DNA of 64,000 nucleotides from Candidatus Hydrogenedentota bacterium (GTDB lineage: Bacteria > UBA8481 > J006), in NCBI GenBank assembly GCA_003697085.1, contig RFFU01000002.1, forward strand, positions 18,983-82,982, given 5' to 3'. Made by a program: the position numbers and the translations under genes. The notes beneath the pieces are model-generated. The model was not told the DNA's origin and did no database searches. It was given only the letters and a program-made list of their open reading frames with translations. This document shows, in pieces, positions 14,658 to 34,305 of the stretch (its first letter is position 1; each line of letters opens with the position of its first letter).

Positions 14658-14731
14658 CGGGGTGGACGGGATTCGAACCCGCAACTTCTGCCGTGACAGG
14701 GCAGTGCTCTAACCAATTGAACTACCACCCC
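14658..14731 (-). tRNA. tRNA-Asp (GTC)
   Basis: Cloverleaf on the minus strand: acceptor stem GGGGTGG (14725-14731) pairs with CCACCCC (14659-14665). The D-arm contains AGTTCAATTGGTTAGAG. The anticodon stem CTGCC/GGCAG encloses loop CTGTCAC with anticodon GTC. The T-loop is GGTTCGAATCC. Discriminator G73 fits Asp. The 3' CCA is not encoded. A consensus promoter lies just upstream. Confidence 0.96.
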
Positions 14732-15103: not shown

Positions 15104-15919
15104 ATGATCCGTGAATTTTCCTATCAAGCCCCTCGGAAGCAGAAGGAACTTCTCGATATTCTCGCGTCGGAAAGAGAGAACGCCCGTGTGTTGGCCGGAG
15201 GGACGGACCTTCTCGTCAACATTCGGCTCGGTCTCCAGCATCCTCGTATCGTTGTGGACATCAAGAAGATCCGTGAGCACACAGCGATCCGTTTCGATGA
15301 GAAGGAAGGGCTTTCGATCGGAGCGGCGGTCACGATCAACGAGGTGATGGAGAACAGGGACGTGCAGAAGCATTTTCCCGCCTTGGTGGAGGCCGCGAAG
15401 GTTTTGGCTTCCCATCAATTACGAAATCGTGCCACGGTGATCGGCAATCTCTGCAACGCTTCGCCCTGCGCGGATATGGCTCCTCCCCTCCTTTGCTTGG
15501 ACGCTCGGGTCGAGATTGTCTCGGATTCGGGCCGGAGGAATCTTCCTCTCGAGGCCTTCTTCGCGGGTGTAAAGAAGACCCGTTTAACTCCGGGAGAATA
15601 CGTCGAACGGATCGTGGTACCTCCGAGGTGGGCGGATGCGGGGGGCGGATTCCGGAAGATGAAGCGTGTGCGGGGGCACGATATCGGGGTTTTGAGCGTC
15701 TGCCTGACGAAGAAGGGACCGTTGCGACGGGTCGCGGTCGGCTCGGCCGCCCCGACGCCGGTATTGGTCGGAGAATTTCGCGGTCGTGTCTCGACGGAGG
15801 AAGTCATCAGAAAAGCGATGCGGCGGATCAATCCGATCGACGACGTGCGTGGTTCCGCGGAGTTTCGGCGGTTCCTGACACGCCGGTACGTTGCGGAATT
15901 GATGAAGGAGGTCCGGTAA
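15104..15919 (+). CDS. Xanthine dehydrogenase family, FAD-binding subunit
   Basis: A 271-residue FAD subunit (CoxM/XdhB type) of a three-subunit molybdenum hydroxylase, carrying electrons from the iron-sulfur subunit to FAD and on to an acceptor. FAD signatures are 'VLAGGTDLLV' near residues 32-41 and 'LRNRATVIGNLCNASPCADMAP' near 105-126 (given by key residues: the second FAD loop). The C-terminal CO_deh_flav_C region is present ('FRKMKRVRGHDIGVLSVCL'). The order FAD, 2Fe-2S, molybdopterin is the usual one. The stop overlaps the next ATG. The substrate is not shown by this subunit. Confidence 0.92.
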   Translation: MIREFSYQAPRKQKELLDILASERENARVLAGGTDLLVNIRLGLQHPRIVVDIKKIREHTAIRFDEKEGLSIGAAVTINEVMENRDVQKHFPALVEAAKVLASHQLRNRATVIGNLCNASPCADMAPPLLCLDARVEIVSDSGRRNLPLEAFFAGVKKTRLTPGEYVERIVVPPRWADAGGGFRKMKRVRGHDIGVLSVCLTKKGPLRRVAVGSAAPTPVLVGEFRGRVSTEEVIRKAMRRINPIDDVRGSAEFRRFLTRRYVAELMKEVR

Positions 15920-16437
15920 TGAAGCGGGCGGAAGCGGGAGAGCCGGTCGAGATTTCGCTTCGCATCAATGGAGAGAAGGTGACGTGCCGCGTGCCGCCCC
16001 ACGTGACGCTCCTTCGTTTCCTACGGGAGTATGTCGGTCTGACGGGAACGAAGGAAGGGTGTTCCGCGGGGGAATGCGGGGCCTGCACGGTTCTGTTTAA
16101 CGGCCGCGCCGTGAACTCCTGCCTCGTTTTGGCCGTCGAGGCTGACGGAGCGAACATCAGGACGGTCGAGGGGGAATGCCGCAACAACAGACTGTCCCGC
16201 CTCCAAGAGCTTCTCGATAAACACCACGCCGTCCAATGCGGGTTCTGCACTCCAGGGATGATTATGTCGATCCGAGATCTTTTGGCCCGCCACCCGAAGC
16301 CCACGTTGCGCCAGATTCAGGAAGGGATCGAGGGAAACTTCTGCCGGTGCACCGGGTACGTACAAATCATTGAGGCGATCCTTGAATACACGGGGCAGTT
16401 GAAGAAGAAGGGAGAGTTGAAGCGTGTACGCGGATAA
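15919..16437 (+). CDS. Xanthine dehydrogenase family, [2Fe-2S] subunit
   Basis: A 172-residue subunit with both iron-sulfur clusters. The N-terminal ferredoxin-type cluster uses Cys48, Cys53, Cys56 and Cys68 (CSAGECGACTVL ... NSC). The C-terminal helical cluster uses Cys106, Cys109, Cys141 and Cys143 (QCGFCTPGM ... CRCTGY). It relays electrons from the molybdenum site to FAD. The ATG shares its A with the previous TAA, and its end overlaps the large-subunit start by 14 nt. All eight ligands are present, so it should be functional. Confidence 0.94.
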   Translation: MKRAEAGEPVEISLRINGEKVTCRVPPHVTLLRFLREYVGLTGTKEGCSAGECGACTVLFNGRAVNSCLVLAVEADGANIRTVEGECRNNRLSRLQELLDKHHAVQCGFCTPGMIMSIRDLLARHPKPTLRQIQEGIEGNFCRCTGYVQIIEAILEYTGQLKKKGELKRVRG

Positions 16438-18832
16438 GGACCCTGGTTCCTTGAAGGTTGTCGGCACACCGCAACGCCGGGTCGATGTTCTCGAGAAATT
16501 GACGGGGGCGGCACGATACACGGCCGATTTGAAGCTTCCGGGGATGTTGTACGCGAAGGTGAAGCGGAGCCCCCATGCTCGGGCGAGGATCATCCGCATC
16601 GACACATCCCGTGCGGCGGCGCTTCCGGGCGTTCGATCGATCATTACGGGCGAGGAACTTCCCTACCGCGTGGGGCTTTACATCGTAGACAAGTATGTGA
16701 TGGCAAGGGGAGTCGTGCGGCATTTCGGCGAGGCCGTGGCGGCGGTGGCGGCCGACTCGATCGAGATCGCCCAGAGAGCGGTGGATTTGATCGAGGTGGA
16801 ATACGAGGTCCTCACGCCGGTCCTCGATCCTGTCAAAGCCTTCGACAGGCGTTCCCCGCTGGTACATCCGGACTTGGGGGAGTACGAGTACGTCGAAGCG
16901 GTCTTTACTCCGGTGCCGGGAACGAACATCGCGAATCACACGAAATTGAGGAAGGGGAATCTGGCGAAGGGGTTCCGGGAAGCGGACTGGATCGTTGAAC
17001 GGGAATACACGAATCCTTCCGTGCAGCACGTACCGATGGAGACTCACGTTGCGATCGGGCAGTGGGGACCGCGAGACCAGGTGACGTTGTGGTCGTCGGC
17101 GCAGTCTCCGTTCACGGTCCGGAACCTCTTCTGTCATGCCTTCAAACTCCCGCACAAGAACGTGCGCGTGATCGTCCCGTACGTCGGAGGAGGATTCGGA
17201 GGAAAAGCGGGAATACATCTCGAACCACTCGTGGCGTGTCTTTCGAGAAAGGCGGGCGGTCGTCCCGTGCGATTGGTTGCGACACGGGAAGAGGAATTCA
17301 GTCTTCTCCCGTGCCGGAGCGCTTTGACGTATCGGATCAAGACCGGTCTGCGTAACGATGGAAGGATCGTCGCTCAGAAGATGACGATGTTTTGGGATGC
17401 CGGAGCCTATGCCGATTATGCCGTGAACGTCACGCGGGCGTCCGGCTATTCGGCTTCCGGGCCCTACGAGATTCCGAATGCATGGATCGATGCCTATACG
17501 ATGTACACGAACAAACCGTTCGGAACGGCCTATCGTGGTTTCGGTCATGTGGAGTTCTCGTGGGGAATCGAGCGGCATATGGATTTGTGCGCGCGAACGA
17601 TCGGAATGGACCCACTGGAGTTTCGGAAAGTGAACGCGTTGCGACCCGGATCGCTCACTTTGACGGGGGAAAGGATCACGGTGAATACGGGAAACGTGAC
17701 GAAGTGTATGGAGGAGGTCGCGAAGGCTATCAATTACGGCCGGCTGACGGCTCGGGAGAAGGCGCGGGAGAAACGCACGGGAAAGAAGATCGGGAAAGCG
17801 GTGGCGGCGCTGCACAAGGCTCCCGCGATGCCGCCGTTCACTTCGACGGTCGTCATTCTTCGGATGAACGAAGACGGAACGGTGACGGCGAACTTCTCTC
17901 TTTCGGAGATCGGGCAGGGGACGTACACCTCCGTTGCGCAGGTCATAGCGGAGCGGTTGAAGTTTCCGATGGAGAAGATCCGCGTCTGTCTGGATACCGA
18001 CACGGAGCACGATCCATACGATTGGCAGACCGTGGCTTCCAAGGGACTGGTTCTGACGGGCAACGCGGCGATCCTGGCGGCGGAGGATCTTCTGCGCCGC
18101 GCCTACGGGACGGCCGGTCAAATTCTTCGGGCTCACCCCCGGGATCTGGACCATGACGACGAGAAGGTTTTCCTCCGCCATCACCCGGATCGGAGTGTAA
18201 CGTTTCGAGAGATGGCCGTGGGATACGCCTATCCCGACGGCAACGGGATCGGAGGGCAGATTGTCGGTGTGGGGCGATACATCGCTCAAGGCTTGAGCAA
18301 TCTGAACAAGGAAACGGGTCAGGGCCATCCCGCGCTCGATTGGACCTACGGCGCGCACGGAATCATTGTGGAGGTCGATCCGGAGACGGGGGAATACAAC
18401 GTTTTGAAGGTGGCCTCCGCGTTCGACGTGGGAAAGGCGATCAATCCCGAGTGTGTACGTGGGCAGGCCGTCGGAGGGATGTTGCAGGGGCTGGGGACGG
18501 CCGTGTGCGAGGGGTATATGTACGACACGGAGGGGCATCTTCTCAATCCCTCCTTTACGGACAACAAAGTTCCGACGGCTATGGACCTTCCTGAGGAAGT
18601 AGAGAGTATCGCCGTGGAGACGCCGCAGATCGACGGACCGTATGGGGCGCGCGGTGTCGGGGAGCATCCGATGATTGCGGTATGCGGAGCACTGGGAAAC
18701 GCGATCCAAAACGCGGTCGGCGCCGACCTCACACATATGCCGATGCGGCAGGAAGACGTCTGGAGGGCGTTGAGAAAGAAGACATCGATCAATCATTTCA
18801 TCACTCGTTGCGGATTCGGTTGCAAACGGTGA
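16424..18832 (+). CDS. Xanthine dehydrogenase family, molybdopterin-binding subunit
   Basis: An 802-residue catalytic subunit (CoxL/XdhA type) that hydroxylates an aromatic heterocycle or aldehyde at the Mo-pterin cofactor. Visible: N-terminal a/b hammerhead ('DVLEKLTGAARYTADLKLPG', key residues), 'VGGGFGGKAG' cofactor loop, 'GTAYRGFGHVE' with the substrate-positioning Arg, and the C-terminal 'GPYGARGVGEHP' with the catalytic Glu. It lacks the AYxCSFR loop of CO dehydrogenase, so CO is unlikely. The context (AllFGH, cyclase, amidase) points to a purine, pyrimidine or related N-heterocycle. The GTG start overlaps the [2Fe-2S] gene, and the stop overlaps the next GTG. Confidence 0.93.
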   Translation: MYADKDPGSLKVVGTPQRRVDVLEKLTGAARYTADLKLPGMLYAKVKRSPHARARIIRIDTSRAAALPGVRSIITGEELPYRVGLYIVDKYVMARGVVRHFGEAVAAVAADSIEIAQRAVDLIEVEYEVLTPVLDPVKAFDRRSPLVHPDLGEYEYVEAVFTPVPGTNIANHTKLRKGNLAKGFREADWIVEREYTNPSVQHVPMETHVAIGQWGPRDQVTLWSSAQSPFTVRNLFCHAFKLPHKNVRVIVPYVGGGFGGKAGIHLEPLVACLSRKAGGRPVRLVATREEEFSLLPCRSALTYRIKTGLRNDGRIVAQKMTMFWDAGAYADYAVNVTRASGYSASGPYEIPNAWIDAYTMYTNKPFGTAYRGFGHVEFSWGIERHMDLCARTIGMDPLEFRKVNALRPGSLTLTGERITVNTGNVTKCMEEVAKAINYGRLTAREKAREKRTGKKIGKAVAALHKAPAMPPFTSTVVILRMNEDGTVTANFSLSEIGQGTYTSVAQVIAERLKFPMEKIRVCLDTDTEHDPYDWQTVASKGLVLTGNAAILAAEDLLRRAYGTAGQILRAHPRDLDHDDEKVFLRHHPDRSVTFREMAVGYAYPDGNGIGGQIVGVGRYIAQGLSNLNKETGQGHPALDWTYGAHGIIVEVDPETGEYNVLKVASAFDVGKAINPECVRGQAVGGMLQGLGTAVCEGYMYDTEGHLLNPSFTDNKVPTAMDLPEEVESIAVETPQIDGPYGARGVGEHPMIAVCGALGNAIQNAVGADLTHMPMRQEDVWRALRKKTSINHFITRCGFGCKR

Positions 18833-19659
18833 CGGTCCCGGGCGTTTCCGCCGCGGGGGACGTCTTGCAGGCAAGAACGGACGGAGAGGTCGGTTTTTTC
18901 GAGAAAGAACTTCGAGGAACGGTGGAGGCGCTGTTTCGGACCGGCTTCAGCATTCGGACCGGGAAGGGACTCTTTTGGATTACGCGGGAAAGAGAGCGGC
19001 TTCATACCCGAGCCGGTTTCCTTTCAAGGATGAATTTTCCTGATCCAGCCGTGGGGTGTGCGGTTCTGTTTCGTCCGGGGGAGATATCGTTCGGTGCGCG
19101 CCGGTTTCCTCTTTTACGAACGGTCGTTCCCCCGCGGCGTCTGAAGAGGATCGATCCCGCATTCCTCGAGAGGAACCTCCGTTTCCTAAGGCGAATCGTC
19201 ACGTTGGCTTTGGGGCAGAGAGAAAAGGAGAAGGTGCAGCGATACGAGGCGAGTGTCGAAGAGAGAGGACGATCCGGCCTTCTGAGTTTCGAGGATTTCC
19301 TTTCCTTGTTCGGAACGGGACCGGGTTCGACGCCTCTCGCCGATGATTTCTTTACAGGTCTGCTTCTTGGTGATCGCTGGTTTTGCTCGCAAAGAGGGGG
19401 AGAGGTAATCATCACGCCGTTCTTTCTCGAGCGCCTGAGGGAGCGGACGAATCACGTCGCGTGGGCACAAATCGAAATGGCCCGCCGCGGACAAAGTGTA
19501 ATATTGATTGAACGACTCTTGGCGGCGATGGGAAGAAAGAATGTTTCCGGGAGTCTGGTCTGGCGTTGCGCACGATTGGGAGCATCGTCCGGTGCCGCGA
19601 TTTTAAGCGGCCTTTGTGTTGCGGTATGCCGGAGCATGCGGCGGCGGAAAGCGGCATGA
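18829..19659 (+). CDS. allH: DUF2877 protein, AllH-like oxamate carbamoyltransferase subunit
   Basis: A 276-residue protein with the DUF2877 signature 'GTGPGSTPLADDFFTGLLLG' near residues 162-181, the length of E. coli AllH (formerly YlbF). In E. coli AllF, AllG and AllH together form oxamate carbamoyltransferase, which converts carbamoyl-oxamate and phosphate to oxamate and carbamoyl phosphate. All three subunits are consecutive here. I chose GTG 18829 because it overlaps the molybdopterin-subunit stop (GTGA); upstream codons are out-of-frame readings of that gene. The stop overlaps the FdrA start (ATGA). Family call is good; substrate identity is inference from E. coli. Confidence 0.8.
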   Translation: MTVPGVSAAGDVLQARTDGEVGFFEKELRGTVEALFRTGFSIRTGKGLFWITRERERLHTRAGFLSRMNFPDPAVGCAVLFRPGEISFGARRFPLLRTVVPPRRLKRIDPAFLERNLRFLRRIVTLALGQREKEKVQRYEASVEERGRSGLLSFEDFLSLFGTGPGSTPLADDFFTGLLLGDRWFCSQRGGEVIITPFFLERLRERTNHVAWAQIEMARRGQSVILIERLLAAMGRKNVSGSLVWRCARLGASSGAAILSGLCVAVCRSMRRRKAA

Positions 19660-21227
19660 CGGTCAAGAAGGGGCTCGTCCATCGTGATCGGTATTATGAT
19701 TCCGTGACCCTGATGCGTGTGACCAATGAGGTGCGTTCCCGCGAGGGAGTCTGCGCGGCTGTCGTCGGTATGGGCACCGATTTCAACATCGACAGCCTTA
19801 AACGAATGGGTCTGTTTCTTCCGGAGTTTGATGGAGTCACGCCGAACGATCTTCTCGTGGCGGTGGAAGCGGAGGATGACGCGGCGCTGGAGACGGCACT
19901 GGCCGTCGCCGAAGAGGAGATGACCCGGCGCCGGGTGATCAGCGGGTCCGATTATATTCCGCCGACACTGGAACGCGCCTTGGAGATGAATCCGGAGGCG
20001 CAAGTCGTGCTCGTTTCGGTTCCCGGCCGGTATGCCGCCGGCGAGGCGCGGAAAGCGCTCGAGGCTGGCCGTCACGTTATGCTCTTTTCAGACAACGTCT
20101 CGATCGAGGAGGAACGTTCACTCAAGGAACTAGCCGTGTCCAAGGGGCTCTTGATGATGGGGCCTGACTGCGGTACTGCGATTCTCAACGGCGTCCCGCT
20201 GGCGTTTGCCAACGTCGTCCGTCGCGGTTCGATCGGTGTCGTGGCCGCTTCCGGAACGGGCTTGCAGGAAGTGACTTGCCTGATCGATCGTTTCGGTTTC
20301 GGGATTTCCCAGGCTCTGGGCGTGGGAGGGCGTGATCTTTCGAAAGAGATCGGAGGATTGATGACGATCGAGTGTGTGAAGGCGCTTTTGGAGGATGCGG
20401 CGACGGAGGTGATCGTGATCGTGAGCAAGCCGCCGGCTCCGGAAGCCCAGAAGAGTCTCTTTCGGGAACTCGAAGGCGCAGTGAAACCGATTGTGATCTA
20501 CTTTATCGGGGCGGATCGAGAGCGGATCGAGGAAGCGGGATTCGTGACGGCGGGAGATCTGGAGGAAACGGCGTCCCGGGCGGTCGAGATCTTGACCGGA
20601 GAACCTGTCGGGCAACTTGTTCCCGAGAATCTCGCGAGAGAGATCGTTGCTAATCGAAAACTACCGGGACCATTTGTCCGCGGACTCTATTCCGGCGGAA
20701 CTTTTTGCGACGAGGCGCAGAGGAAATTGATGGAAGCGGGATTTGATGTGTATTCGAACACGCCCGCGCCGGGAGCGCGGTGCGTGGAAGACCTCCAGAA
20801 AAGCGTCGGGCACACGATTCTCGATCTTGGCGACGACGATTTCACGCGTGGAAGAGCGCATCCGATGATCGATCCGGCGGAGCGGATACGGAGGTTGGAG
20901 GTCGAGTTTGCGGACGATGACGCCGGGCTGATCCTATTCGACGTCGTTTTGGGGTACGGGTCTCACCCGGATATGGGAGGAGCGATGGCGGCGGCTATTC
21001 GGGCGGCGCGGGAAAAGAGCAACCGAGAACCTCTGCTTTTCTGCAATCTTTGCGGAACAGAAAGTGATCCGCAGGGCTTCGATAAGCAACGCAAGGTATT
21101 GGAGGAAGCGGGTGTCGTGGTCTTTCCATCGCACGCGTCGATGCTTCGAACGGCGACGGAACTTCTCTCGGGAAAGAACGCCTTCAAGGGGAAGGCTGCC
21201 GATCATGCGGAGGTCGGAAAAGAATGA
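19656..21227 (+). CDS. allF: FdrA/AllF-family protein (acyl-CoA synthetase-like oxamate carbamoyltransferase subunit)
   Basis: A 523-residue protein built like succinyl-CoA synthetase alpha/beta subunits. It starts 'MTVKKGLVHRDRYYDSVTLM', close to E. coli FdrA. The middle has the CoA-ligase-type 'GPDCGTAILNGVPLAF' and 'IGVVAASGTGLQEV', then 'GFGISQALGVGGRDLSKEIGG'. The C-terminal ligase-like domain has 'GLYSGGTFCDEAQ' and 'DVVLGYGSHPDMGGAM'. E. coli AllF is one of three subunits of oxamate carbamoyltransferase. ATG 19656 overlaps the previous stop (ATGA); an upstream ATG at 19626 is possible. It ends about 20 nt before a small companion gene. Confidence 0.87.
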   Translation: MTVKKGLVHRDRYYDSVTLMRVTNEVRSREGVCAAVVGMGTDFNIDSLKRMGLFLPEFDGVTPNDLLVAVEAEDDAALETALAVAEEEMTRRRVISGSDYIPPTLERALEMNPEAQVVLVSVPGRYAAGEARKALEAGRHVMLFSDNVSIEEERSLKELAVSKGLLMMGPDCGTAILNGVPLAFANVVRRGSIGVVAASGTGLQEVTCLIDRFGFGISQALGVGGRDLSKEIGGLMTIECVKALLEDAATEVIVIVSKPPAPEAQKSLFRELEGAVKPIVIYFIGADRERIEEAGFVTAGDLEETASRAVEILTGEPVGQLVPENLAREIVANRKLPGPFVRGLYSGGTFCDEAQRKLMEAGFDVYSNTPAPGARCVEDLQKSVGHTILDLGDDDFTRGRAHPMIDPAERIRRLEVEFADDDAGLILFDVVLGYGSHPDMGGAMAAAIRAAREKSNREPLLFCNLCGTESDPQGFDKQRKVLEEAGVVVFPSHASMLRTATELLSGKNAFKGKAADHAEVGKE

Positions 21228-21246
21228 GAAAGAGGTTGGCGGTGGA

Positions 21247-21435
21247 ATGAGCGGAATGCGGGAGATTTTCGGGAAAGAGGTTGTCGTAATCAACGTCGGG
21301 TTGGATCTCTTTGCCGAGGAATTGGAGAAGGCTACCGTGCCGGTTCAGCGGGTCGCGTGGCGGCCGCCGGCGCAGGGAAAGAAGAAGGTGCAAGACTTAC
21401 TTGCCCGCATCAAGAAGAAGAAGGGAAAGGAGTGA
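21247..21435 (+). CDS. Small FdrA-associated protein (62 aa)
   Basis: A 62-residue protein in the gap between the FdrA and DUF1116 genes. It has a compact N-terminal part, 'EVVVINVGLDLFAEELEKA', then 'VPVQRVAWRPPAQG' and a Lys-rich tail. I recall similar segments attached to or preceding FdrA/DUF1116 proteins in other genomes, so this may be a detached domain of the carbamoyltransferase complex; that is from memory, not a search. ATG 21247 follows GGCGGTGG, and the stop is 5 nt before the DUF1116 start, which supports translation. No catalytic motif is visible. Confidence 0.65.
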   Translation: MSGMREIFGKEVVVINVGLDLFAEELEKATVPVQRVAWRPPAQGKKKVQDLLARIKKKKGKE

Positions 21436-21440
21436 CCGGA

Positions 21441-22682
21441 ATGGCGGATTATGAGACGGCGAACGCGGAGGCGATCGCCCGAATCCAGAAGGCGCAGCCG
21501 GTGTTGAAGGGGATCGACGTTGCGGAGAAGGTCGTACCGGGAATGAGGAAGAATCTGATTCTTCACGCGGGACCGCCGATCGAGTGGGAGAAGATGTCCG
21601 GCCCGTTGCGGGGAGCGGTCATCGGGGGGCTGATGTACGAGGGGCTGGCGAAAACGAAAGAGGAAGCCGAAGCCTTGGCGGCATCGGGGGAGATAGCGTT
21701 TGAACCGTGGCACGAACATTCCGGCGTGGGACCGATGGCGGGAGTGGCCACGGCGCGAATGCCGGTCTTCATCGTCGAGAACGAGACACATGGAAACAGA
21801 ACCTTTTGTACGTTGAATGAAGGGCTCGGCAAAGTCTTGAGGTACGGTGCTTATTCCGAGGAAGTCCTGGAGCGTTTGCGGTGGATGGAGGCGGTTTTGG
21901 CTCCGGTATTGGCCGAAGCCTTGGAGAAACACGGCCCGATCAACCTGAAAACCCTCATTGCGCAGGCGCTTCAGATGGGGGATGAAGTGCACAACCGCAA
22001 CCGCGCGGGCACATCGCTTTTCATCCGTGAAATCGCCCCTTTCCTTCTCGAGGGGACGTCTGCCGTGAAAGAGCGCCGGAGGGTCTTGGAGTTCATCAAC
22101 GGAAACGACCACTTCTTTCTGAATCTCTCTATGCCCGCGGCGAAGGCGATTATGCAATCCGCGGAATGGATCGAGGGATCGACGATCGTGACGACGATGG
22201 CGCGAAACGGCACCGAGTTCGGGATCCGTGTCGCGGGATTGAAGGAGCGATGGTTCACGGGACCGGCCCAGGTGATCGACGGCCTCTTCTTTCCCGGATA
22301 TTCGGTGAAGGACGCGAATCCCGACATCGGCGACAGCGCCATTACGGAGACGTGCGGTCTGGGAGGGTTTTCGATGGCGGCGGCTCCGGCGATCGTCAAG
22401 TTTGTCGGTGGAGCCGCTTCCGATGCGCTCAACTTTACGAGAAAGATGTACGAGATCACGATGGCGGAGTCGGAGTCGTTCCAGATCCCCGCACTCGATT
22501 TCCGCGGCTCGCCCACCGGCATCGACATAATGAAGGTTTGCGAACTTGGAATTCTGCCGCAGATCAACACGGGTATTGCGCACAAGGAACCGGGCGTGGG
22601 GCAGGTCGGAGCGGGGTTGGTCAATCCCCCGATGGAATGTTTCGAAAGAGCCTTGGAGGCCTACGCGGAGACGTACGCGTGA
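21441..22682 (+). CDS. allG: DUF1116 protein, AllG-like oxamate carbamoyltransferase subunit
   Basis: A 413-residue DUF1116 protein, matching E. coli AllG (formerly YlbE) along its whole length as I remember it: 'LLHAGPPxxWxxMxGP' near residues 35-50, 'VGPMAGVATARMPVFIVEN', 'CTLNEGLGKVLRYGAY', 'NRAGTSLFIR', 'FFLNLSMPAAKA', 'DSAITETCGLGGFSMAAAP' and 'NTGIAHKEPGVGQVGAG'. In E. coli it is part of the AllFGH oxamate carbamoyltransferase. It starts 5 nt after the 62-residue gene. Presence of all three subunits with all conserved blocks argues for an active complex, though the acceptor may differ from oxamate. Confidence 0.88.
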   Translation: MADYETANAEAIARIQKAQPVLKGIDVAEKVVPGMRKNLILHAGPPIEWEKMSGPLRGAVIGGLMYEGLAKTKEEAEALAASGEIAFEPWHEHSGVGPMAGVATARMPVFIVENETHGNRTFCTLNEGLGKVLRYGAYSEEVLERLRWMEAVLAPVLAEALEKHGPINLKTLIAQALQMGDEVHNRNRAGTSLFIREIAPFLLEGTSAVKERRRVLEFINGNDHFFLNLSMPAAKAIMQSAEWIEGSTIVTTMARNGTEFGIRVAGLKERWFTGPAQVIDGLFFPGYSVKDANPDIGDSAITETCGLGGFSMAAAPAIVKFVGGAASDALNFTRKMYEITMAESESFQIPALDFRGSPTGIDIMKVCELGILPQINTGIAHKEPGVGQVGAGLVNPPMECFERALEAYAETYA

Positions 22683-22797
22683 GAAGGCCCGGAGACTTGC
22701 GGAAAAGGGAAAAGGCGCTTGCGCGCCGGAAAAAGAAATGGTGCCGGGGAATCACGGAGGGGGGGGAAGAAGGAAAAATGAAAGGAGGAAGAGTGAG

Positions 22798-23583
22798 ATG
22801 GTAAGAATGTACGATTTGACGCAGAGGCTTTCGGTGCACACGCCTCCGTGGCCCAGCTATATGCCGCTTCAGATCCAGTACTTCAAGCGGATCGCGGGAG
22901 CGCATATGGGCCAAGGTGCAAACGGGCAGATTATCAAGACGAGCAACCACGTCGGGACCCACATCGACGGCGAGATTCACTTCCATGCGTGCGGGCGCCC
23001 GATCGGGGACGTGCCGTTGGAGGAACTCTGCGGCGAAGGCGTGGTCGTCGATATATCGGATGCGGTGGAGGATTACTCGCTTTACTCTCCGCAACTTCTG
23101 ATGGACCGGGCCGAGATTCGACAGGGGGATATTCTGATCATCAATACCGGCTATCACCGGTATGCGTGGGACCAGCCGGAATCGGACGAGGTGCGATATA
23201 TGGTGAAGCATCCGGGGCCGGATCCGGAATTTCACAAATGGGCTTTGGAAATGAAGTTCAAGTGGATCGGTGTCGATTGTGGTTCGGCCGACCACCCCAT
23301 GAACACGATCCTTCGGGACTGGCATCCGAAACTCTTTCAGGAGGCGGAGGCGAAACTTAAGAAGGACCATGGAAAGAGTTGGGATGAGATGTATCCTCCG
23401 CAAGAGTATTATCAGGTGATGCACATCAAACTTTTTCCGGCGGGACTGATACACGCGGAGAATTTGGGGGGGGAAATCGATGCTTTGAAGAACAAACGGA
23501 CGTGGATCGGGTGTTTTCCGTGGAAAGGAATCGAGATGGAATCAAGTATTTGTCGGATTGTTGCGTTCGAATTTGGAGCGTAG
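22798..23583 (+). CDS. Cyclase-family metal-dependent hydrolase (kynurenine formamidase/isatin hydrolase-like)
   Basis: A 261-residue protein of the cyclase family (PF04199), which hydrolyses cyclic or linear amides using Zn2+ or Mn2+. The family metal motif is clear: 'SNHVGTHIDGEIHFH', with His51, His55 and Asp57 as ligands, followed by 'DILIINTGYHRYAW' and 'WIGVDCGSADHP'. Known members include kynurenine formamidase and isatin hydrolase. Next to a molybdenum hydroxylase and AllFGH, a ring-opening role on a hydroxylated heterocycle is plausible. ATG 22798 sits after a strong AAAGGAGGAAG site. The 115 nt gap before it is purine-rich. Confidence 0.85.
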   Translation: MVRMYDLTQRLSVHTPPWPSYMPLQIQYFKRIAGAHMGQGANGQIIKTSNHVGTHIDGEIHFHACGRPIGDVPLEELCGEGVVVDISDAVEDYSLYSPQLLMDRAEIRQGDILIINTGYHRYAWDQPESDEVRYMVKHPGPDPEFHKWALEMKFKWIGVDCGSADHPMNTILRDWHPKLFQEAEAKLKKDHGKSWDEMYPPQEYYQVMHIKLFPAGLIHAENLGGEIDALKNKRTWIGCFPWKGIEMESSICRIVAFEFGA

Positions 23584-23589
23584 AGCGGC

Positions 23590-24477
23590 GTGGAAAAATT
23601 TGCAGTCGCCTGCATTCAAATCGCGCCGAGTCCCAATGCAATCTCGGAAAACACGGAAAAGTGTCTAGCGTGGATCGACGCGGCGGTTCGCGATTTTCGA
23701 CCGCGTCTCGTCGTGCTTCAGGAGACCGTCACGACGGGGTTTTCGCCCGGGATGCCGCGCGAGGAATTTTATGACCTCGTGGAACCGATCGACGGGCCTT
23801 CGGCCTGCGCCGTGGCGCGTCTGGCCCGTGATCGAAAAACAGCGGTGCTTTTTCCGATGTACGAAAAAGGGGCGGAGGCCCCTGTCGTTTACAACAGTGC
23901 GCTTCTTTTCGACGAACGCGGAGAGCGTCGCGGCCTTTATCGCAAGACCCATCCCTTTCCGACGGAACGGATCGAGGGAGGAGGTTGGACGACGCCGGGA
24001 AATTCTCTCGACGTTTTCGACCTCGGTTTCGTCAAGGTAGGAGTGACGATCTGTTACGAAGGAGACTTTCCGGAACCGTCGCGGATTCTCTCTCTCAAGG
24101 GGGCGGAAGTGATACTGCGGCCTTCCGCCCTTTTGCGGAGTTTCGAAATCTGGGAATTAACGAATCGAGCGCGAGCCTACGACAATCATGTTTACGTCGT
24201 TGGAGTCAACGCGGTCGGATCAGATGCGGCGGGGAACCATTATTTCGGGCATTCCATGGTGGTCGACCCGATCGCGAGAAAATTGGCTCAGGCGCGCGGG
24301 ACGGAAGAGATCATCGGTGTCGAATTGGATCCGGAGCCGCTCAAGTACGTGACGTACGGTGCCCATTCTCCCATGCTCTTCGACCACATTGAGGATAGGA
24401 ATCTCGATGTGTACGATGGCCTCTTAGCCGAGGGGCGTTGTCCATTCGAACCAAGTCGGAGGATTCCGTACCGGTAG
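23590..24477 (+). CDS. Carbon-nitrogen hydrolase (nitrilase superfamily amidase)
   Basis: A 295-residue nitrilase-superfamily enzyme with the complete catalytic triad: Glu45 (VVLQETVTTG), Lys119 (GLYRKTHPF) and Cys155 (VGVTICYEGDF). The superfamily hydrolyses amides, carbamoyl groups or nitriles by a thiol mechanism. It begins with GTG 6 nt after the cyclase-family stop, so it is the last gene of the operon. A likely job is removing a carbamoyl or amide group from the ring-opened intermediate. It is distinct from the N-carbamoylputrescine amidase at 28278. Confidence 0.87.
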   Translation: MEKFAVACIQIAPSPNAISENTEKCLAWIDAAVRDFRPRLVVLQETVTTGFSPGMPREEFYDLVEPIDGPSACAVARLARDRKTAVLFPMYEKGAEAPVVYNSALLFDERGERRGLYRKTHPFPTERIEGGGWTTPGNSLDVFDLGFVKVGVTICYEGDFPEPSRILSLKGAEVILRPSALLRSFEIWELTNRARAYDNHVYVVGVNAVGSDAAGNHYFGHSMVVDPIARKLAQARGTEEIIGVELDPEPLKYVTYGAHSPMLFDHIEDRNLDVYDGLLAEGRCPFEPSRRIPYR

Positions 24478-26301: not shown

Positions 26302-27223
26302 CGAGAAACAATGCTCCCCACAAGGAATCGTATTCGCTTACCGTGACTTCGGTCAAACCTGTTGCTTTGAGTGTCTCCTCGAGAATTACAGTTCCCGCGA
26401 TAACGGTCACGGCGCGTTCCGGAACCATTCCGGGAAGCGCGCGCCGTTTTTCCAGAGGTAAATGTTCGAGGGTACTTCGCCAGCGGGAGATTGTATCGAG
26501 TGAAAGACGATACCCGTGAATGCGTTCGGGGTCGTATTTTTCAAGAGCGAGATCGAGCGCGGCGAGCTGAGTGACACTGCCGGCCACTCCGATCAGACGG
26601 GTCGGACTCAAGTCTCCGATTCCTCGTTTGACCAACGCGGCCGTTTCCGCATGCAGAGCGGCGAGTTCTTCGGGAGCCGGCGGATCGGTTCGGAGAAAAC
26701 GCTCGGTCTGTCGAACGGAACCCAACGCCAGAGAGCGGGATTGAATCGAATCGGGAGTAGTTGCGTCTCCGGCGATGAACTCGGTCGAGCCGCCGCCGAT
26801 ATCGAGAACAAGCGTCTCGGAAAGCGGTGTGAAGGCGAGAGTGACTCCGCGGAAAGTGACAGCCGCTTCTTCCGTTCCCGTCAGAACACGGATCGGCCTT
26901 CCCGCGGCCTTCTCGATGATTTCGCGGATGTCGGAGGCGTTTTTCGCTTCGCGCAGCGCGGCCGTGCCGAAGACCGTAATTCTTTCGGCGTGGAGTTCCC
27001 GCGCCTGTTCGGCGAAACGGCCGACGGCGGCGGTTGTCCGCGCGGCGGCGTCCGCGGTGATCAGGCCGGTGGAATCGAGCGAGCGGCCCAGGCCCGTGAT
27101 CTCGAGATTGGAAAAGACCTTTCGAGGAGGATGACCGGAGAGATCGGCGACGAGAAGGCGGACGGAATTCGTGCCGATGTCGATCGAGGCCGCGATCGAA
27201 CCGGAGTGCGCCGGAACGGTCAT
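26294..27223 (-). CDS. Ppx/GppA family exopolyphosphatase
   Basis: A 309-residue member of the exopolyphosphatase/guanosine pentaphosphatase family (ASKHA fold). Motifs: 'SIDIGTNSVRLLVADL' at residues about 11-26 (phosphate-1 loop), 'VLDIGGGSTEFIAGD' (phosphate-2 loop) and 'LIGVAGSVTQLAAL'. It lacks the C-terminal HD domain of E. coli Ppx, so it is the short form. It acts on polyphosphate or (p)ppGpp; which one is not shown. I chose ATG 27223 because it overlaps the agmatine deiminase stop by 4 nt; an upstream ATG at 27286 lies inside that gene. Confidence 0.87.
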   Translation of the reverse strand: MTVPAHSGSIAASIDIGTNSVRLLVADLSGHPPRKVFSNLEITGLGRSLDSTGLITADAAARTTAAVGRFAEQARELHAERITVFGTAALREAKNASDIREIIEKAAGRPIRVLTGTEEAAVTFRGVTLAFTPLSETLVLDIGGGSTEFIAGDATTPDSIQSRSLALGSVRQTERFLRTDPPAPEELAALHAETAALVKRGIGDLSPTRLIGVAGSVTQLAALDLALEKYDPERIHGYRLSLDTISRWRSTLEHLPLEKRRALPGMVPERAVTVIAGTVILEETLKATGLTEVTVSEYDSLWGALFLDE

Positions 27224-28281
27224 AACGCCTCGCCGCGGACGGCGGGTTGCTGTTGGGTCGAACAGTGAACCGATCCAAAACCCCATGCGAGATCGACCGA
27301 GTGAATGCCGACGACTTCACGATCGGGAAAGCATTCGGCAATCAATTCCAAGGCTGTTCGATCACGGGGGTCGTTGAAGGTTGGCACGAGCACGACTGAG
27401 TCGGCGATGTAGAAATTGAGGTAGGAGGCCGGGAGGCGGTGTTTTCGGAAAAAGATCGGCTGCGGTGCGGGCACCGTGATAATCGTGGGCCGCCGGCCGT
27501 TTTCGAGCCGTGCGGAACGAAGACGGAGGAGATTCTCGGCGGCCGCTTCCGCGTCCGCCCCGGAGAGACTTTCCGGGGCCAGTGTCAGGATCGTAGTAGG
27601 ATTGACGAAACGTGCGAGTTGATCGACGTGGCCGCCGGTGTCGTCGCCCGCCAGGCCGCGCGCGAGCCAGACGACATTCGGGGCACCGAGAAATCGAGTG
27701 AAGACCCTCCGGTAATCGGTCTTTGAAAAATCCGGATTGCGGGGTTGACGGCGCCTGTCGAGAAGGCATTCTTCCGTCGTCAAGAGAGTCCCTCGGCCGT
27801 TGACATCGATGGCTCCCCCCTCGAGGACGATTGGATGCGATCGAAACGAACATCGAAGGAGCGGCAGGGAGAGTTTGTGTGCGGCGCGCCGCGGGACGGC
27901 GGCATCCCGGCGGTAATTTAAGTATCGACCCCAACCGTTGAAACGGAAGCCCGCGATCACAATCCGTTTCCGTTTTCCCCGAGTTTCCTCCAGGAAGATC
28001 GGGCCGTAATCCCGGCACCACGAACGGTCGGTGGGGATGGAGAGAAAAGTGATGGGGTCGAGTGGTAGGGAGATATCGGAGATGAGCCGCCGCACGCGCG
28101 CCTCCGCCCGGCTGTTCGGAACCAGTAACGTAACACGTTCGGATCGAATGAGGTGACGAAGGATTTCAAGATAAACGAAGGGGATCGTGGCGAACTTGCC
28201 CGGCCAGTCCTCGGAATTGTGCGGCCACGAGAGCCAGGTGGATTGATGAGGCTCCCATTCCGCCGGAAGGCGAAGACTCAT
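27220..28281 (-). CDS. aguA: Agmatine deiminase
   Basis: A 353-residue agmatine deiminase of the Porphyromonas-type peptidyl-arginine deiminase family, converting agmatine to N-carbamoylputrescine and ammonia. Key residues: 'DRSWCRDYGPIF', 'EGGAIDVNGRGTLLTTEECLL' (key Glu/Asp), 'GDDTGGHVDQLARFV' and the catalytic Cys340 in 'GFGSVHCSTQQ'. The neighbouring N-carbamoylputrescine amidase gene overlaps it by 4 nt, which fixes the pathway: agmatine to putrescine without ornithine decarboxylase. Confidence 0.93.
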   Translation of the reverse strand: MSLRLPAEWEPHQSTWLSWPHNSEDWPGKFATIPFVYLEILRHLIRSERVTLLVPNSRAEARVRRLISDISLPLDPITFLSIPTDRSWCRDYGPIFLEETRGKRKRIVIAGFRFNGWGRYLNYRRDAAVPRRAAHKLSLPLLRCSFRSHPIVLEGGAIDVNGRGTLLTTEECLLDRRRQPRNPDFSKTDYRRVFTRFLGAPNVVWLARGLAGDDTGGHVDQLARFVNPTTILTLAPESLSGADAEAAAENLLRLRSARLENGRRPTIITVPAPQPIFFRKHRLPASYLNFYIADSVVLVPTFNDPRDRTALELIAECFPDREVVGIHSVDLAWGFGSVHCSTQQQPAVRGEAL

Positions 28282-29216
28282 CGGCGTTTGGAAGACGAGA
28301 AGGAAGGGTCGAGAGACGACGAGGAAGGCGGATGAGTGTCGGACCTGAAACGTTGCAGAAGGCCATCGTAGGCGTCGATTCTACGATCCCGCAGGAAAGG
28401 CCAGTTCCGCCGTGTCTCTTCGACCAGGGAGAGGTCGATCTCGGTCATGAGAATCTCTTCGGCGTCGCGAGCAGCCTCGGCCAGAACCCGGCCCTGTGGA
28501 TCCGAGACGAAGGAACCACCCCAAAACTCGATCGACGAATCTTCGATCTCTTCCCTCCCGGCCCGGTTCACCGTGGCCGCGAAGAGACCGTTGGCGATGG
28601 CGTGGCCGCGTTGAACGGTTCGCCAGGCATCGTACTGCGTCTCTCCGAATTCCGCCTTCTCCTGGGGAAGCCAGCCGATTGCCGTCGGGTAGAAGAGGAT
28701 TTCCGCACCGTCAAGCGCCGCCAACCTTGCCGCTTCCGGAAACCACTGGTCCCAACAGATGAGGACCGCGATACGGGCATGCGGTGTGTCTACGGCAAAG
28801 AAACCGGTATCGCCGGGAGTAAAATAGAATTTCTCGTAGTAGGAAGGATCATCGGGGATGTGCATCTTCCGGTAGAGCGTTTGGATGTCGCCGGAGGGGG
28901 AAAGGATTGCGGCCGAGTTGTGATAGAGACCGGGGCCGCGTTTTTCGAAAAGAGGGGCGATGATCGTCGTTTCTGTTTCGAGCGCAACGGTTCCGAGACG
29001 GTCGACGGTCGGTCCCGGGATCGGCTCGGCCAGATCGAAAAAGGTCGCGTCCTCCTTCTGACAGAAATATCGGGAACGGAAGAGTTCGGGGAGGCAGAGG
29101 ATCACGGCCCCCTTAGCCGCCGCCTCGCGGCACATCCTTTCCGCGCGGAGGAGGTTTGCTTCCGGGTCGTTCTCCGGAGTCGTTTGAATGAGCGCTATGC
29201 GAAACGGCTCTGTCAT
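28278..29216 (-). CDS. aguB: N-carbamoylputrescine amidase
   Basis: A 312-residue nitrilase-superfamily amidase hydrolysing N-carbamoylputrescine to putrescine, CO2 and ammonia. Triad: Glu44 (CLPELFRSRYF), Lys117 (LYRKMHIPDD) and Cys154 (VLICWDQWFPE). The combination 'MHIPDDPSYYEKFYFTPGD' and 'LICWDQWFPEAARL' is characteristic of AguB. The preferred ATG at 29216 gives a normal N-terminus (FRIALIQTTP); a longer frame adds 51 residues without homology. It is first in the operon with aguA, a Ppx/GppA gene and the amidase. Confidence 0.93.
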   Translation of the reverse strand: MTEPFRIALIQTTPENDPEANLLRAERMCREAAAKGAVILCLPELFRSRYFCQKEDATFFDLAEPIPGPTVDRLGTVALETETTIIAPLFEKRGPGLYHNSAAILSPSGDIQTLYRKMHIPDDPSYYEKFYFTPGDTGFFAVDTPHARIAVLICWDQWFPEAARLAALDGAEILFYPTAIGWLPQEKAEFGETQYDAWRTVQRGHAIANGLFAATVNRAGREEIEDSSIEFWGGSFVSDPQGRVLAEAARDAEEILMTEIDLSLVEETRRNWPFLRDRRIDAYDGLLQRFRSDTHPPSSSSLDPSFSSSKRR

Positions 29217-29846
29217 CGGTGAAGAGAACCCCCGATTCGGCCTCTCGGCGGACGGACACCCGCGGCAAACGAAAACGAAGTGTGAAACATAGGAAAGGCT
29301 CCTTTCGAAAGAGGTCGCGGTTGCTCGGAAAAATCGAGCGTGTTCATTCTTCAAAAAACCCTCTTCCAAAACAAGAAAAAAGGTGTCATTCTTACAATTT
29401 GACAGTTTCGCGAACGGCTGATTTTCAAAAGACGGTGACGAATTTCGGCCGCGCCATATTGCACATCGCGTGACGTTTGCGCTTCCGTGCCCGCCCTTCG
29501 GTTTCGCAGAATACGGGGTAGAACCTTCGTTGGAGACGTTCCTATGTGGGAGGTCGGGAACGGGGAGGAGAACGGTTCCTAAGCCGTACCTGCTTTGGTG
29601 TCGGCGAAATATCGTCTCACCGAAACGGTTGGTTGTGCTTTCGGGAAATTTCCGATCTGTAGCCTTACAACTTCAATTTCTCGCGGCGTCGGACTGTCGA
29701 ACGTAAGAAGAAAATGGTTTGGATTCCGGCAAACTCTGATTTCGTTTGGCACAAAAAGTTCGGTTCTTGTTGTCTCCCTCTTGCCTGTTACGACACGGGT
29801 TCATAAAGTTTCTGTTGACGATGGATGTCGTGTTGGATCGCGATCG
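29217..29846. other. 630 nt intergenic region between divergent units
   Basis: No gene I can support. Open frames here are short and lack ribosome sites or domain content. The right part holds a promoter candidate for the plus-strand gene at 29847; the left part should hold the minus-strand aguB promoter, which I could not pick out. Confidence 0.5.
29781..29809 (+). promoter_or_regulatory. Candidate promoter for the arrestin-like pair
   Basis: TTGCCT (29781-29786) and TAAAGT (29804-29809) are separated by 17 nt, 38 nt before the ATG at 29847. Each element has one or two departures from consensus. Confidence 0.35.
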
Positions 29847-31345: not shown

Positions 31346-32479
31346 CTACGGCAGGAAGGCTTTGGGGTTCTTCAGCTTCCGGGGAAGGTACTCTTCCATC
31401 ACATAATTGAGTCCCCATTTTGCCAGCGCTTGTTGTTCAGCGCGCACTCCCATCTTCAGCAGCAGTTCGAGGGCGCGTTGCCAGGGTTTGTGGTGCAGGA
31501 AGAACGGATCGTTCTTCAAGGCGTCTTTCGCCCGTTTGATGTCCACGTCTTTTAGAGGATGGGTCGGAAGTTTGTAGTCGACGATGTCCTGGGGTGTAAC
31601 TCCGAGAAAACGAGCGGCGGGAACGGAAAAGAAGCGGCTGATATGTGCCGCGTTGCCGGAGCCGACCTTGAGGGAACGGTAGATGTTGGCGATTCCGTAG
31701 GGGTCGCAATCGACGAAGGCATAGACGGGGATCTTCTTTTCTTCGGAGAGCCGACGGAGAAACCGCCGGCAGGCGCGGGTCGGAACCCCGCCCATACTCA
31801 CGAGGATGCAGTTCGCCCGGCGCCAAAATTTGTGAGCGGCCAGCCTCTGAAACATCCCGCCCGTTTCGATGACGAGAATGAACTTCGCTTTCGTTTCAAA
31901 TTCCAGATGCTCGACAGAGGAAGGAACGGAATAGGCCCCCGACCCGAAAGCCGTGCAGTCGATACGAATCTTCTTTCCCGTCTCCCAATCCCGATCGATC
32001 ACGGTGAGCCGTCCGGCGATGTCGCCGCCTTTCTCCTCGGGATAAAACCGGAGATGTTCGCGATTCAAGCCACTGGTCGAAAAGAGCGCCTCGATATCGT
32101 CCATCACAGCATCCGATTCTTCCTGCGCGTCGAACCGCGCCTCCTCCCAGTTCTTCGACTGGTAATAAGCATCTCGCTTCGTCGCGAAATCGTTGGTTTC
32201 CACCAACTCCTTCGAAAGGGCCATCATCCGCAGTGTCTGGGCGAAGGTCCGGACCGTTCCAACGGTGAGGGTTCGTGATTTTCGAGCCCGCCCGATCTCA
32301 AAATACCCCTTCCGCACGTCATAACGAACGTTCGAAAGGGAACGGATGGGGAAGGAGAGTTCCGGTTTCTTCAAGCGGCGGATTCGATTGTAAACATCCC
32401 GGGCTTGTTCCGTAATTCGGTCGATCACCTTCTTGTCGATCGCCGTTTGAGCGGCGGTGCGTCTTCCCCGTCGTGCCAT
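31346..32479 (-). CDS. top6A: DNA topoisomerase VI subunit A
   Basis: A 377-residue Spo11-like catalytic subunit of type IIB topoisomerase, which makes two-nucleotide-staggered double-strand breaks. The winged-helix domain carries the active-site Tyr in 'ATKRDAYYQSKNW' (Tyr105/106). The Toprim domain shows 'VLVSMGGVPTRACRRFL'-type and 'VYAFVDCDPYGIANIYRSLK' segments (given by key acidic residues D-x-D). Length is normal for archaeal Top6A. The ATG shares its A with the TGA of top6B (TGATG), so the subunits are co-translated. Topo VI is common in archaea and plants but uncommon in bacteria. Confidence 0.95.
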   Translation of the reverse strand: MARRGRRTAAQTAIDKKVIDRITEQARDVYNRIRRLKKPELSFPIRSLSNVRYDVRKGYFEIGRARKSRTLTVGTVRTFAQTLRMMALSKELVETNDFATKRDAYYQSKNWEEARFDAQEESDAVMDDIEALFSTSGLNREHLRFYPEEKGGDIAGRLTVIDRDWETGKKIRIDCTAFGSGAYSVPSSVEHLEFETKAKFILVIETGGMFQRLAAHKFWRRANCILVSMGGVPTRACRRFLRRLSEEKKIPVYAFVDCDPYGIANIYRSLKVGSGNAAHISRFFSVPAARFLGVTPQDIVDYKLPTHPLKDVDIKRAKDALKNDPFFLHHKPWQRALELLLKMGVRAEQQALAKWGLNYVMEEYLPRKLKNPKAFLP

Positions 32480-34305
32480 CAGAATTTCCTCGACTTCTCA
32501 AGTATCGTCGTCAAGTTCCGCGTTGCTTTTTTCGTGCTTGCCTCGGAGAGGGATAGGATTTGTTGAAGCGCCAGGGCGACTTGCGGGATATAGGTCTGGA
32601 TGTACGATCGTTTCTTTTCCGCATCGGCGATCCGTGCTTTCTTTCGGATGTGGATTCCGAGACGCCGGCCGCATTCTTGAAGGGCCAATCGAATTTCCTT
32701 GAGGATCTCGGGATAGGAGGCGATCGCTTCCTTCGACTCGCTCGTGAACGGAACCCATGCGCTGGCGATGTGCACCGCGATGACGAGCGGCCCTTGCGGC
32801 AATGCGGTGCGAGGATGCGTCAGACCGTAGGCGCGCCAATTCAATCCGACGACCGCTTTCGTGATCGCGCAACCGGCTTGTTGATATTGCAGCGGAACGC
32901 GGTTGGCAAAACGGACGAGGTCGGCGGGGGAATCGGCGTCCCGTCCCTCCACCCCCCAGGCCAGGGCTGCTTCGACAAGAAACGGATTGCCGCGGTACAC
33001 GGCGGGATTTCGAGAGACGGCCGTCGAGAACTCGGCCTTCCCGGCCACGCGTTTCAGCCCGGCCAGCATCAACTCTTCCCCGATCGGCGAGAGACAATTC
33101 GTCGGAGGGCGCGGAATCTTTGTCTTGCGGACGGCCCGGTACAAGGCATCGGCTTCCTGGCGCGCAATCCGGGAGGGGCGGGCCGTGGGAGGCAACTTGG
33201 CATTCGCGCAGATCGTTTCGGCGATCGTCGGGCCCACCCGCGCGAACTCCGTGGTCAGAAACCCCTTCAGATTGCGGGCCCGCGTCGCCTTCAACATCTG
33301 CATCAAAAGCCCCAATTCGATTCCGTGCGGGTGCGGTTTGATCTCCGCCGCTTCAATCGGCAGAATCTCCGTGGCGCGCTTCCGATACATTTCCTGACCG
33401 TCCGGCGCCTTGTAGTGCAATGTGACATGAGGATTCGCGATCAGTACCTGCTCGAGGTATTCCTCGATCGATCGCCGCCCGCGCTGGAAAATCCCCTCCA
33501 GATGAATCTCGACACGTGTCCCGTGTTCCCGGTTCCATTCGACGACTTCGTCCTTGACGACTTCAGGCGCGTTGCGCTTCGTGTCGATGTGGATCTCGAA
33601 GTAGTGCGCCGGACGCTTGGGACCGGTTCGGGAAATGATGCGGCACGACGTGCCGGTGGTGAGTTGGCCGTACATCGCCGCGGCTGAGATACCGATGCCT
33701 TGCTGGCCGCGGGACTGCTTCAAGCGGTGGAACTTCGATCCGTAAAGAAGTTTTCCGAAAATCCTCGGAATCTGGCTTTTTACGATTCCCGGACCGTTGT
33801 CCTCTATGACCACCTTGAATCGGTCTTGTCCCTCCGGTGTGATCTCCACGAAAACCTCCGGAAGGATTCCCCCTTCTTCGCAAGCGTCGAGCGCGTTGTC
33901 CACCGCCTCTTTGACCGTCGTCAGTAGCGCTTTCTTCGGATTATCGAAACCGAGGAGATGGCGGTTCTTCGTGAAGAACTCGGCCACCGAAATCTCGCGC
34001 TGTCGCGTTGCCATCTCGGCGGCGGATCGCCCGCGCTTTGCCGCAGAGGTTGCCGGAACTTCATTTTTTGGGGATTGTCCTTGCGTGGCGGCTGGGGCCA
34101 CCGGGGTTCGAGATTCGGTTTCCGCCCGCCGGTTCTTTATTCCTGTCGAAGGCTCTTGCCTCGAACTCTTTTTCACCTTCCTGGTCTGTTTCGCCTCCCC
34201 GGAGGATTTTTTTGCATTGGAACGGGGAGAACCCGTGGAACGCCTTGCCGTTCGCTTCTTCTTTCCGTTTTTTGGTTTGCTGGCCTTTTTCCCTCGACTC
34301 ACCAC
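32479..34305 (-). CDS. top6B: DNA topoisomerase VI subunit B
   Basis: A 608-residue GHKL ATPase subunit. Motifs: N-box '[14 protein letters not shown]' (Asn137), '[27 protein letters not shown]' (G1 and a family-specific block, given by key residues), '[17 protein letters not shown]' (G2). H2TH and transducer domains follow. The first about 95 residues are an unusual Lys/Arg/Ser/Thr-rich tail with no counterpart in archaeal proteins I know; ATG codons at the end of the tail are alternatives. Partner of Top6A, with which it overlaps by one base. Confidence 0.95.

Follow-up and report, generated by a model that had tools for sequence, protein, structure and literature searches.

The window analysed here is a 64,000-nucleotide stretch of contig RFFU01000002.1 (positions 18,983 to 82,982, forward strand) from the Candidatus Hydrogenedentota bacterium assembly GCA_003697085.1, a genome of 3.2 Mb in 145 contigs that is 94.6% complete. 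At positions 15104-24477 of the plus strand it carries a nine-gene operon in which a molybdenum (Mo) hydroxylase of the xanthine oxidase (XO) family is followed by the carbamoyltransferase subunits AllH and AllF, a 62-amino-acid protein, AllG, a cyclase-family hydrolase and a nitrilase-type amidase:

15104-15919, plus strand: FAD subunit of the XO-family Mo hydroxylase (PF00941, FAD_binding_5, 167.9 bits)
15919-16437, plus strand: [2Fe-2S] subunit of the Mo hydroxylase (PF01799, Fer2_2, 95 bits; PF00111)
16424-18832, plus strand: molybdopterin-binding large subunit of the Mo hydroxylase (PF02738/PF20256, MoCoBD_1/2, 266/244 bits)
18829-19659, plus strand: carbamoyltransferase subunit AllH (DUF2877; PF11392, 50.6 bits, cut-off 25)
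19656-21227, plus strand: AllF/FdrA lacking ~46 residues at its C-terminus (NF004760, 456 bits, model positions 5-498 of 555)
21247-21435, plus strand: stand-alone 62-amino-acid gene matching the detached AllF C-terminal domain (NF004760, positions 509-554 of 555, E 1.9e-8)
21441-22682, plus strand: AllG subunit (DUF1116; PF06545, 339.6 bits)
22798-23583, plus strand: cyclase-family metal hydrolase with an HxGTHxDxxxH motif (PF04199, 113 bits)
23590-24477, plus strand: nitrilase-type amidase (CN_hydrolase) with Glu/Lys/Cys (PF00795, 164 bits)

The hydroxylase, AllFGH, cyclase-family and amidase genes lie on a single strand where the original prediction had placed them, and score well above their family cut-offs. 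That prediction described eight or more genes with a complete AllFGH, overlapping by 1-14 nt through most of the set. All three carbamoyltransferase subunits are indeed present together (PF06545, PF11392 and NF004760 above cut-offs), but the genes number nine, the 62-amino-acid open reading frame (ORF) having been overlooked, and AllF lacks its C-terminal part. The overlap sizes were right, but they hold for only four of the eight junctions (FAD/iron-sulfur subunit, 1 nt; iron-sulfur/large subunit, 14 nt; large subunit/AllH, about 4 nt; AllH/AllF, 4 nt); from AllF on, the genes are spaced by 19, 5, 115 and 6 nt. The start of AllH is uncertain, at TTG 18820 or GTG 18829.

AllF reaches 456 bits against the NCBIfam FdrA model PRK06091 (cut-off 433). 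The short ORF cannot be dismissed as noise because it matches the part of the FdrA model that AllF lacks; the C-terminal domain is thus present, though encoded by its own gene. A motif scan (VINxGxxxFxxxLxxxxxPVxxVxWxPP) placed this domain in a stand-alone protein in the window's clade and as the N-terminal part of AllG in Spirochaetes, Bacteroidota and Peptoclostridium; its E. coli counterpart, judged by eye, is the AllF C-terminus. On these sequence comparisons it appears to be a mobile domain of the carbamoyltransferase, and the 62-amino-acid protein is probably a fourth AllFGH subunit here.

E. coli AllFGH splits the N-acylurea oxalurate with phosphate, which yields oxamate and carbamoyl phosphate (PMC11326118). 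The operon has in common with E. coli AllFGH and AllK (PMC11326118, PMC9843812) all three homologous subunits and a carbamate kinase in the genome, and by analogy its AllFGH may catalyse the same N-acylurea chemistry. Unlike the E. coli system, it has no allantoin genes nearby, its carbamate kinase is unlinked, a Mo hydroxylase and a cyclase are joined to it, AllF is split over two genes and AllG is distant from E. coli AllG on the tree.

The large subunit of the hydroxylase aligns with E. coli XdhA at the REE glutamate, the RGFG arginine and the GxGE glutamate, an active site of the xanthine dehydrogenase (XDH) type, the first glutamate of which is absent from the aldehyde oxidoreductase PaoC in the alignment. 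Its closest solved structure is 4-hydroxybenzoyl-CoA reductase. With the latter and XdhABC it has in common the three subunits, the cofactor domains and the XDH-type Glu/Arg/Glu residues; unlike them, it belongs to a subfamily of its own, with 41-76% identity among clusters and scores that reach roughly one half to two thirds of the cut-offs for known large-subunit equivalogs. It failed the NCBIfam equivalog tests for xanthine dehydrogenase (XdhA, 495 bits against a cut-off of 780; PRK09970, 455 against 916). XO-family enzymes normally hydroxylate an sp2 C-H next to nitrogen, which uracil C6 fits, and the large subunit is a candidate uracil (pyrimidine) C6 hydroxylase.

For the cyclase, the best structural matches of an AlphaFold model (pLDDT 79) in the PDB are isatin hydrolases. 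The fold and the HxGTHxDxxxH metal motif are common to isatin hydrolase and kynurenine formamidase (PF04199), and isatin hydrolase opens a cyclic amide, as proposed here. The operon enzyme differs from isatin hydrolase in its ~20% identity and in forming its own conserved subfamily with linkage to AllG; on the strength of its modelled fold it is a candidate ring-opening, barbiturase-type enzyme. No AtzD/TrzD-type barbiturase was found among the nine cluster proteins, to which that search was confined, the rest of the genome not having been searched. The nitrilase displays the E, K and C triad motifs in its sequence and is a candidate malonamate amidohydrolase. Its orthologs (44-66% identity) occur in 16 of 16 genomes of the window's clade; outside this clade none was found in the genomes compared, nothing exceeding 48% over a short stretch. 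In all six Riflebacteria-clade genomes compared, a class III CoA-transferase gene stands within 27-70 nt of the nitrilase gene, and a relative of that transferase is encoded on contig C70 of the window genome; Chloroflexota have the same CoA-transferase directly after the cyclase.

A scan of 84,980 species genomes for AllG yielded 67 loci with two kinds of neighbourhood (the one other genome of the window's phylum that was searched had no AllG). In the first kind, the cyclase comes after AllG, an arrangement found at 46 other loci in Riflebacteria, Elusimicrobiota, Chloroflexota, Clostridia, Spirochaetota, Bacteroidota, Chlorobiota, Cloacimonadota, Planctomycetota, Fermentibacterota and unclassified bacteria. 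On the AllG tree, the cyclase label requires 4 changes, whereas shuffled labels require 20.0 (none of 500 shuffles was as low). In the second kind, a carbamate kinase gene often comes after AllHFG, one example adding a cysteine hydrolase and a xanthine permease; alternatively, AllHFG sits inside an allantoin cluster. E. coli AllG groups with that of Lentilactobacillus on a long branch of their own, apart from the cyclase clades, and the E. coli allFGH cluster contains neither hydroxylase nor cyclase. AllG relatives also occur on 193 plasmid records (96 Escherichia, 140 conjugative); one E. coli plasmid, NZ_OY856300.1 (L003, 8642-14200), has an operon for a cysteine hydrolase, AllH, AllF, AllG and carbamate kinase, in that order, which is distinct from the chromosomal allFGH.

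A hydroxylase of the same subfamily (at least 41% identity) lies inside the locus in 24 of the 46 cyclase-type rows, and loci with both AllFGH and hydroxylase occur in about eleven phyla, in both orientations. In many Riflebacteria the hydroxylase is 12-30 kb from AllG or on other contigs, yet it is present in the genome at 71-76% identity. Overall, a hydroxylase ortholog was found in 19 of 19 cyclase-type genomes (44-76% identity, at least 68% in 18 of them) versus none of eight other AllG genomes (at most 38%), a split with a Fisher probability of 4.5e-7 by hand arithmetic, which is overstated because many of the genomes are related. The cyclase is present in all 31 cyclase-type genomes searched (in L010 not beside AllG), and its matches in 13 other AllG genomes or records do not exceed 31% identity. 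Three genomes first labelled as lacking it (L047, L058 and L067) do contain a cyclase at 46-63%; none was found in a Sumerlaeota metagenome-assembled genome (MAG; L039) whose contig ends in AllG. In the cultured Alkalispirochaeta alkalica DSM 8900, an uninterrupted run of genes encodes AllH, AllF, AllG, the cyclase, the CoA-transferase and an amidase-signature amidase; the same contig carries the hydroxylase genes next to a MocA-like gene, with carbamate kinase ~4 kb further. The labels of two MAGs, 'Erysipelotrichia' (L012) and 'Methylomirabilis' (L041), are doubtful because their AllG falls inside Riflebacteria on the tree. The gene order is thus kept across phyla, and this recurrence, together with the co-occurrence of unlinked copies, rejects a chance neighbourhood: the gene set is a conserved unit.

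Carbamate kinase, which the original prediction had found missing from view, is indeed missing from the window but is encoded elsewhere in the genome (C19:3167-4096, 378.8 bits, cut-off 358); across the genomes compared it exceeds the cut-off in 20 of 22, against 2 of 14 controls. No allantoinase passed the family cut-off in the window genome (best match 285 bits, cut-off 358), and no allantoin genes were found near the operon.

These observations bear out the proposal that a single pathway hydroxylates and opens a heterocycle, passes a carbamoyl group to phosphate and removes an amide: the order is kept, unlinked copies co-occur and carbamate kinase is present. We consider this pathway logic (hydroxylation, ring opening, phosphorolysis, amide removal) very probable. 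The substrate, left by the original prediction as a purine, pyrimidine or related ring, can be narrowed to a pyrimidine, and the operon would then probably serve an oxidative, phosphorolytic pyrimidine degradation, most likely of uracil. In this scheme, the Mo hydroxylase would oxidise uracil at C6, giving barbiturate and two electrons, and the cyclase, a ring-opening enzyme by its fold, would convert barbiturate to ureidomalonate (HOOC-CH2-CO-NH-CO-NH2). AllFGH, here four polypeptides, may then phosphorolyse ureidomalonate to malonamate and carbamoyl phosphate, by analogy with oxalurate, the known AllFGH substrate, of which ureidomalonate is the homologue longer by one CH2. Carbamate kinase, whose gene lies elsewhere, would turn carbamoyl phosphate into ATP, NH3 and CO2. 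The nitrilase-type amidase, or in other clades an amidase-signature enzyme related to malonamidase E2, would free NH3 from malonamate to leave malonate, which the class III CoA-transferase, its gene being present, could convert to malonyl-CoA. Taken as a whole, a route from uracil to ATP by Mo-dependent oxidation, a PF04199 barbiturase family unrelated to AtzD/TrzD, a re-purposed AllFGH and malonyl-CoA (or, in clostridia, export of malonamate) stands at an even balance.

Uracil is favoured because several lines of evidence converge: the homology of ureidomalonate and oxalurate, the XDH-type residues and XO-family chemistry, the isatin-hydrolase-like cyclase, UraA-type permeases, cytosine-deaminase-like genes and the lack of any oxalyl-CoA decarboxylase above cut-off in 22 genomes. 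Recurrent extra partners of the cluster are a UraA-like permease, PucR and the class III CoA-transferase, with an amidase in other clades. The permeases adjoining cyclase-type clusters have the Glu motif of the UraA/RutG type, Y-x-E-N (in one case Y-x-E-V), instead of the F-x-Q-N seen in XanQ, and the xanthine-type sequences branch separately; a pyrimidine-type permease is linked to the cluster in Clostridia, Chloroflexota, one Spirochaete and one Riflebacterium, not in the window genome. Two Chloroflexota clusters include a cytosine-deaminase-like gene, the closest solved relative of which is N-isopropylammelide hydrolase. The amidase-signature malonamidase E2 of Bradyrhizobium is the closest solved structure to the cluster amidases of one Bacteroidota (174 bits, next 160) and of A. 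alkalica, a Spirochaete (165 bits, next 145), a type unlike the nitrilase-type amidase of the window operon.

Several observations weigh against uracil. No UraA-type permease is present in the window genome, whose two PF00860 proteins are one of the xanthine type and one of an outlying type; the organism may take up nucleosides or draw on internal bases. The Elusimicrobia MAG that is the nearest complete relative has a PF00860 permease that reads as purine-type ~2 kb downstream. The CoA-transferase scores about equally as an oxalate, mesaconate or glutarate type and is therefore uninformative as a discriminator between oxalate and malonate. The Chloroflexota amidase is closest to peptide amidase, leaving a malonamidase assignment unsupported, and the clostridial clusters hold no amidase; two of them have an auxin-efflux-type carrier after the cyclase, which, speculatively, might export the amide. 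A thiolase, an OB-fold/Zn-ribbon protein and a GNAT-fold protein without Pfam match accompany the cyclase-type cluster in several phyla (L046, 4411-6681; also L036, L039, L041, L042, L048, L049, L008, L009 and L056), a trio that the simple scheme leaves unexplained and whose GNAT member is missing from the window genome. Reading that GNAT-like partner (c11) as a malonyl-CoA decarboxylase was unsupported, its fold being an ordinary GNAT fold and the window genome being without it. Several source genomes, finally, are MAGs with doubtful labels.

Among the alternatives, the same pathway could act on a pyrimidine other than uracil, or on a related ring (thymine, orotate, a 5-substituted or modified base, or a pyrimidine-like pollutant), to give a substituted ureidomalonate. 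All the pyrimidine context evidence fits it equally, and the thiolase trio hints at a longer acyl-CoA product in some clades. We nevertheless regard it as unlikely: uracil is the commonest substrate in nature, the window genome is without the GNAT member, and the malonamidase-type amidases weakly favour an unsubstituted C3 product. The main rival, in our estimation quite unlikely, starts from a five-membered ring, on which the same enzymes would act in turn: oxidation of hydantoin or a derivative to parabanate, opening by the cyclase to oxalurate, conversion by AllFGH to oxamate and carbamoyl phosphate (its known reaction), then oxalate from the amidase and oxalyl-CoA from the CoA-transferase. 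Hydantoin C5 is sp3 and would need two oxidations, whereas the XO family prefers an sp2 C-H by nitrogen; moreover, the cluster permeases are pyrimidine-type, two cluster amidases are closest to malonamidase, and no oxalyl-CoA decarboxylase exceeded the cut-off in 22 genomes. What commends this route is that E. coli AllFGH has been shown to act on oxalurate (PMC11326118), that the CoA-transferase resembles oxalate CoA-transferases and that, according to a citation in PMC3364942, a 1965 report described an oxamate transcarbamylase of Streptococcus induced by parabanic acid. A purine route, in which the hydroxylase acts on a purine, AllFGH ends allantoin degradation as in E. coli, and the cyclase and nitrilase are side enzymes, draws on AllFGH family membership, the xanthine-type permease of the window genome and the purine-type permease near the Elusimicrobia cluster; it is improbable because no allantoinase passed the cut-off in the window genome, no allantoin genes lie near the cluster, E. 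coli AllG branches separately, and hydroxylase and cyclase are absent from the E. coli cluster. That AllFGH and the hydroxylase are independent neighbours from different pathways, with standard allantoin genes elsewhere, might be suggested by their separation in many Riflebacteria, but they co-occur completely in the genomes compared and, in about eleven phyla, occupy one locus in either orientation; with no allantoinase above cut-off in the window genome either, this reading is most improbable.

Elsewhere in the window, a tRNA gene lies just upstream of the operon on the opposite strand (14658-14731, minus). An agmatine deiminase-like ORF and a second CN hydrolase (210 bits) at 27220-29369 (minus) probably represent an ordinary agmatine-to-putrescine pair separate from the operon, the second CN hydrolase being a putative N-carbamoylputrescine amidase. 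Both subunits of topoisomerase VI (type IIB), an enzyme uncommon in Bacteria, are adjacent at 31346-34305 (minus; Topo VI A, 204 bits; Topo VI B transducer, 188 bits). A protein of the Asp/Glu/hydantoin racemase family at 46281-47186 (plus; PF01177, 91 bits), which adjoins an MgsA/RarA-type AAA ATPase, is possibly simply a glutamate racemase.

The classical oxidative pyrimidine route proceeds through uracil dehydrogenase, a barbiturase of the AtzD/TrzD family and ureidomalonase. The proposed uracil pathway would have barbiturate, ureidomalonate and malonate in common with it; by contrast, the ring would be opened by a PF04199 enzyme and carbamoyl phosphate would be made with no urea released, so that ATP would be gained. 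Known pyrimidine routes comprise the oxidative, reductive, Rut and URC pathways (PMC12507026). Reversible ureido phosphorolysis to carbamoyl phosphate for ATP is also a feature of the anaerobic uric acid pathway with YgeW/YqeA (PMC12507026), which differs in being reductive, in acting on a purine and in using an unrelated carbamoyltransferase. AllFGHK in nitrifiers has been interpreted as degrading oxalurate (PMC12625717). In the open-access PMC literature, we found no paper that connects AllFGH with pyrimidines, with a Mo hydroxylase or with a cyclase, nor this gene combination or a phosphorolytic pyrimidine route. The enzyme families are known; the combination and the putative phosphorolytic route appear to be new, and every step of that route has candidate genes.

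Dead biomass is rich in pyrimidines, and their known degradation routes come mostly from well-studied cultured organisms. The gene set described here occurs in about a dozen phyla, many of them uncultured, from sediments or digesters, in which the proposed route would conserve energy; the cultured strain A. alkalica carries the whole set. If true, the scheme would supply genes for an oxidative uracil pathway, including a candidate for uracil hydroxylation, together with a proposed function for an unannotated cyclase-family clade and a second, new substrate for AllFGH, an enzyme without assigned genes until 2024.

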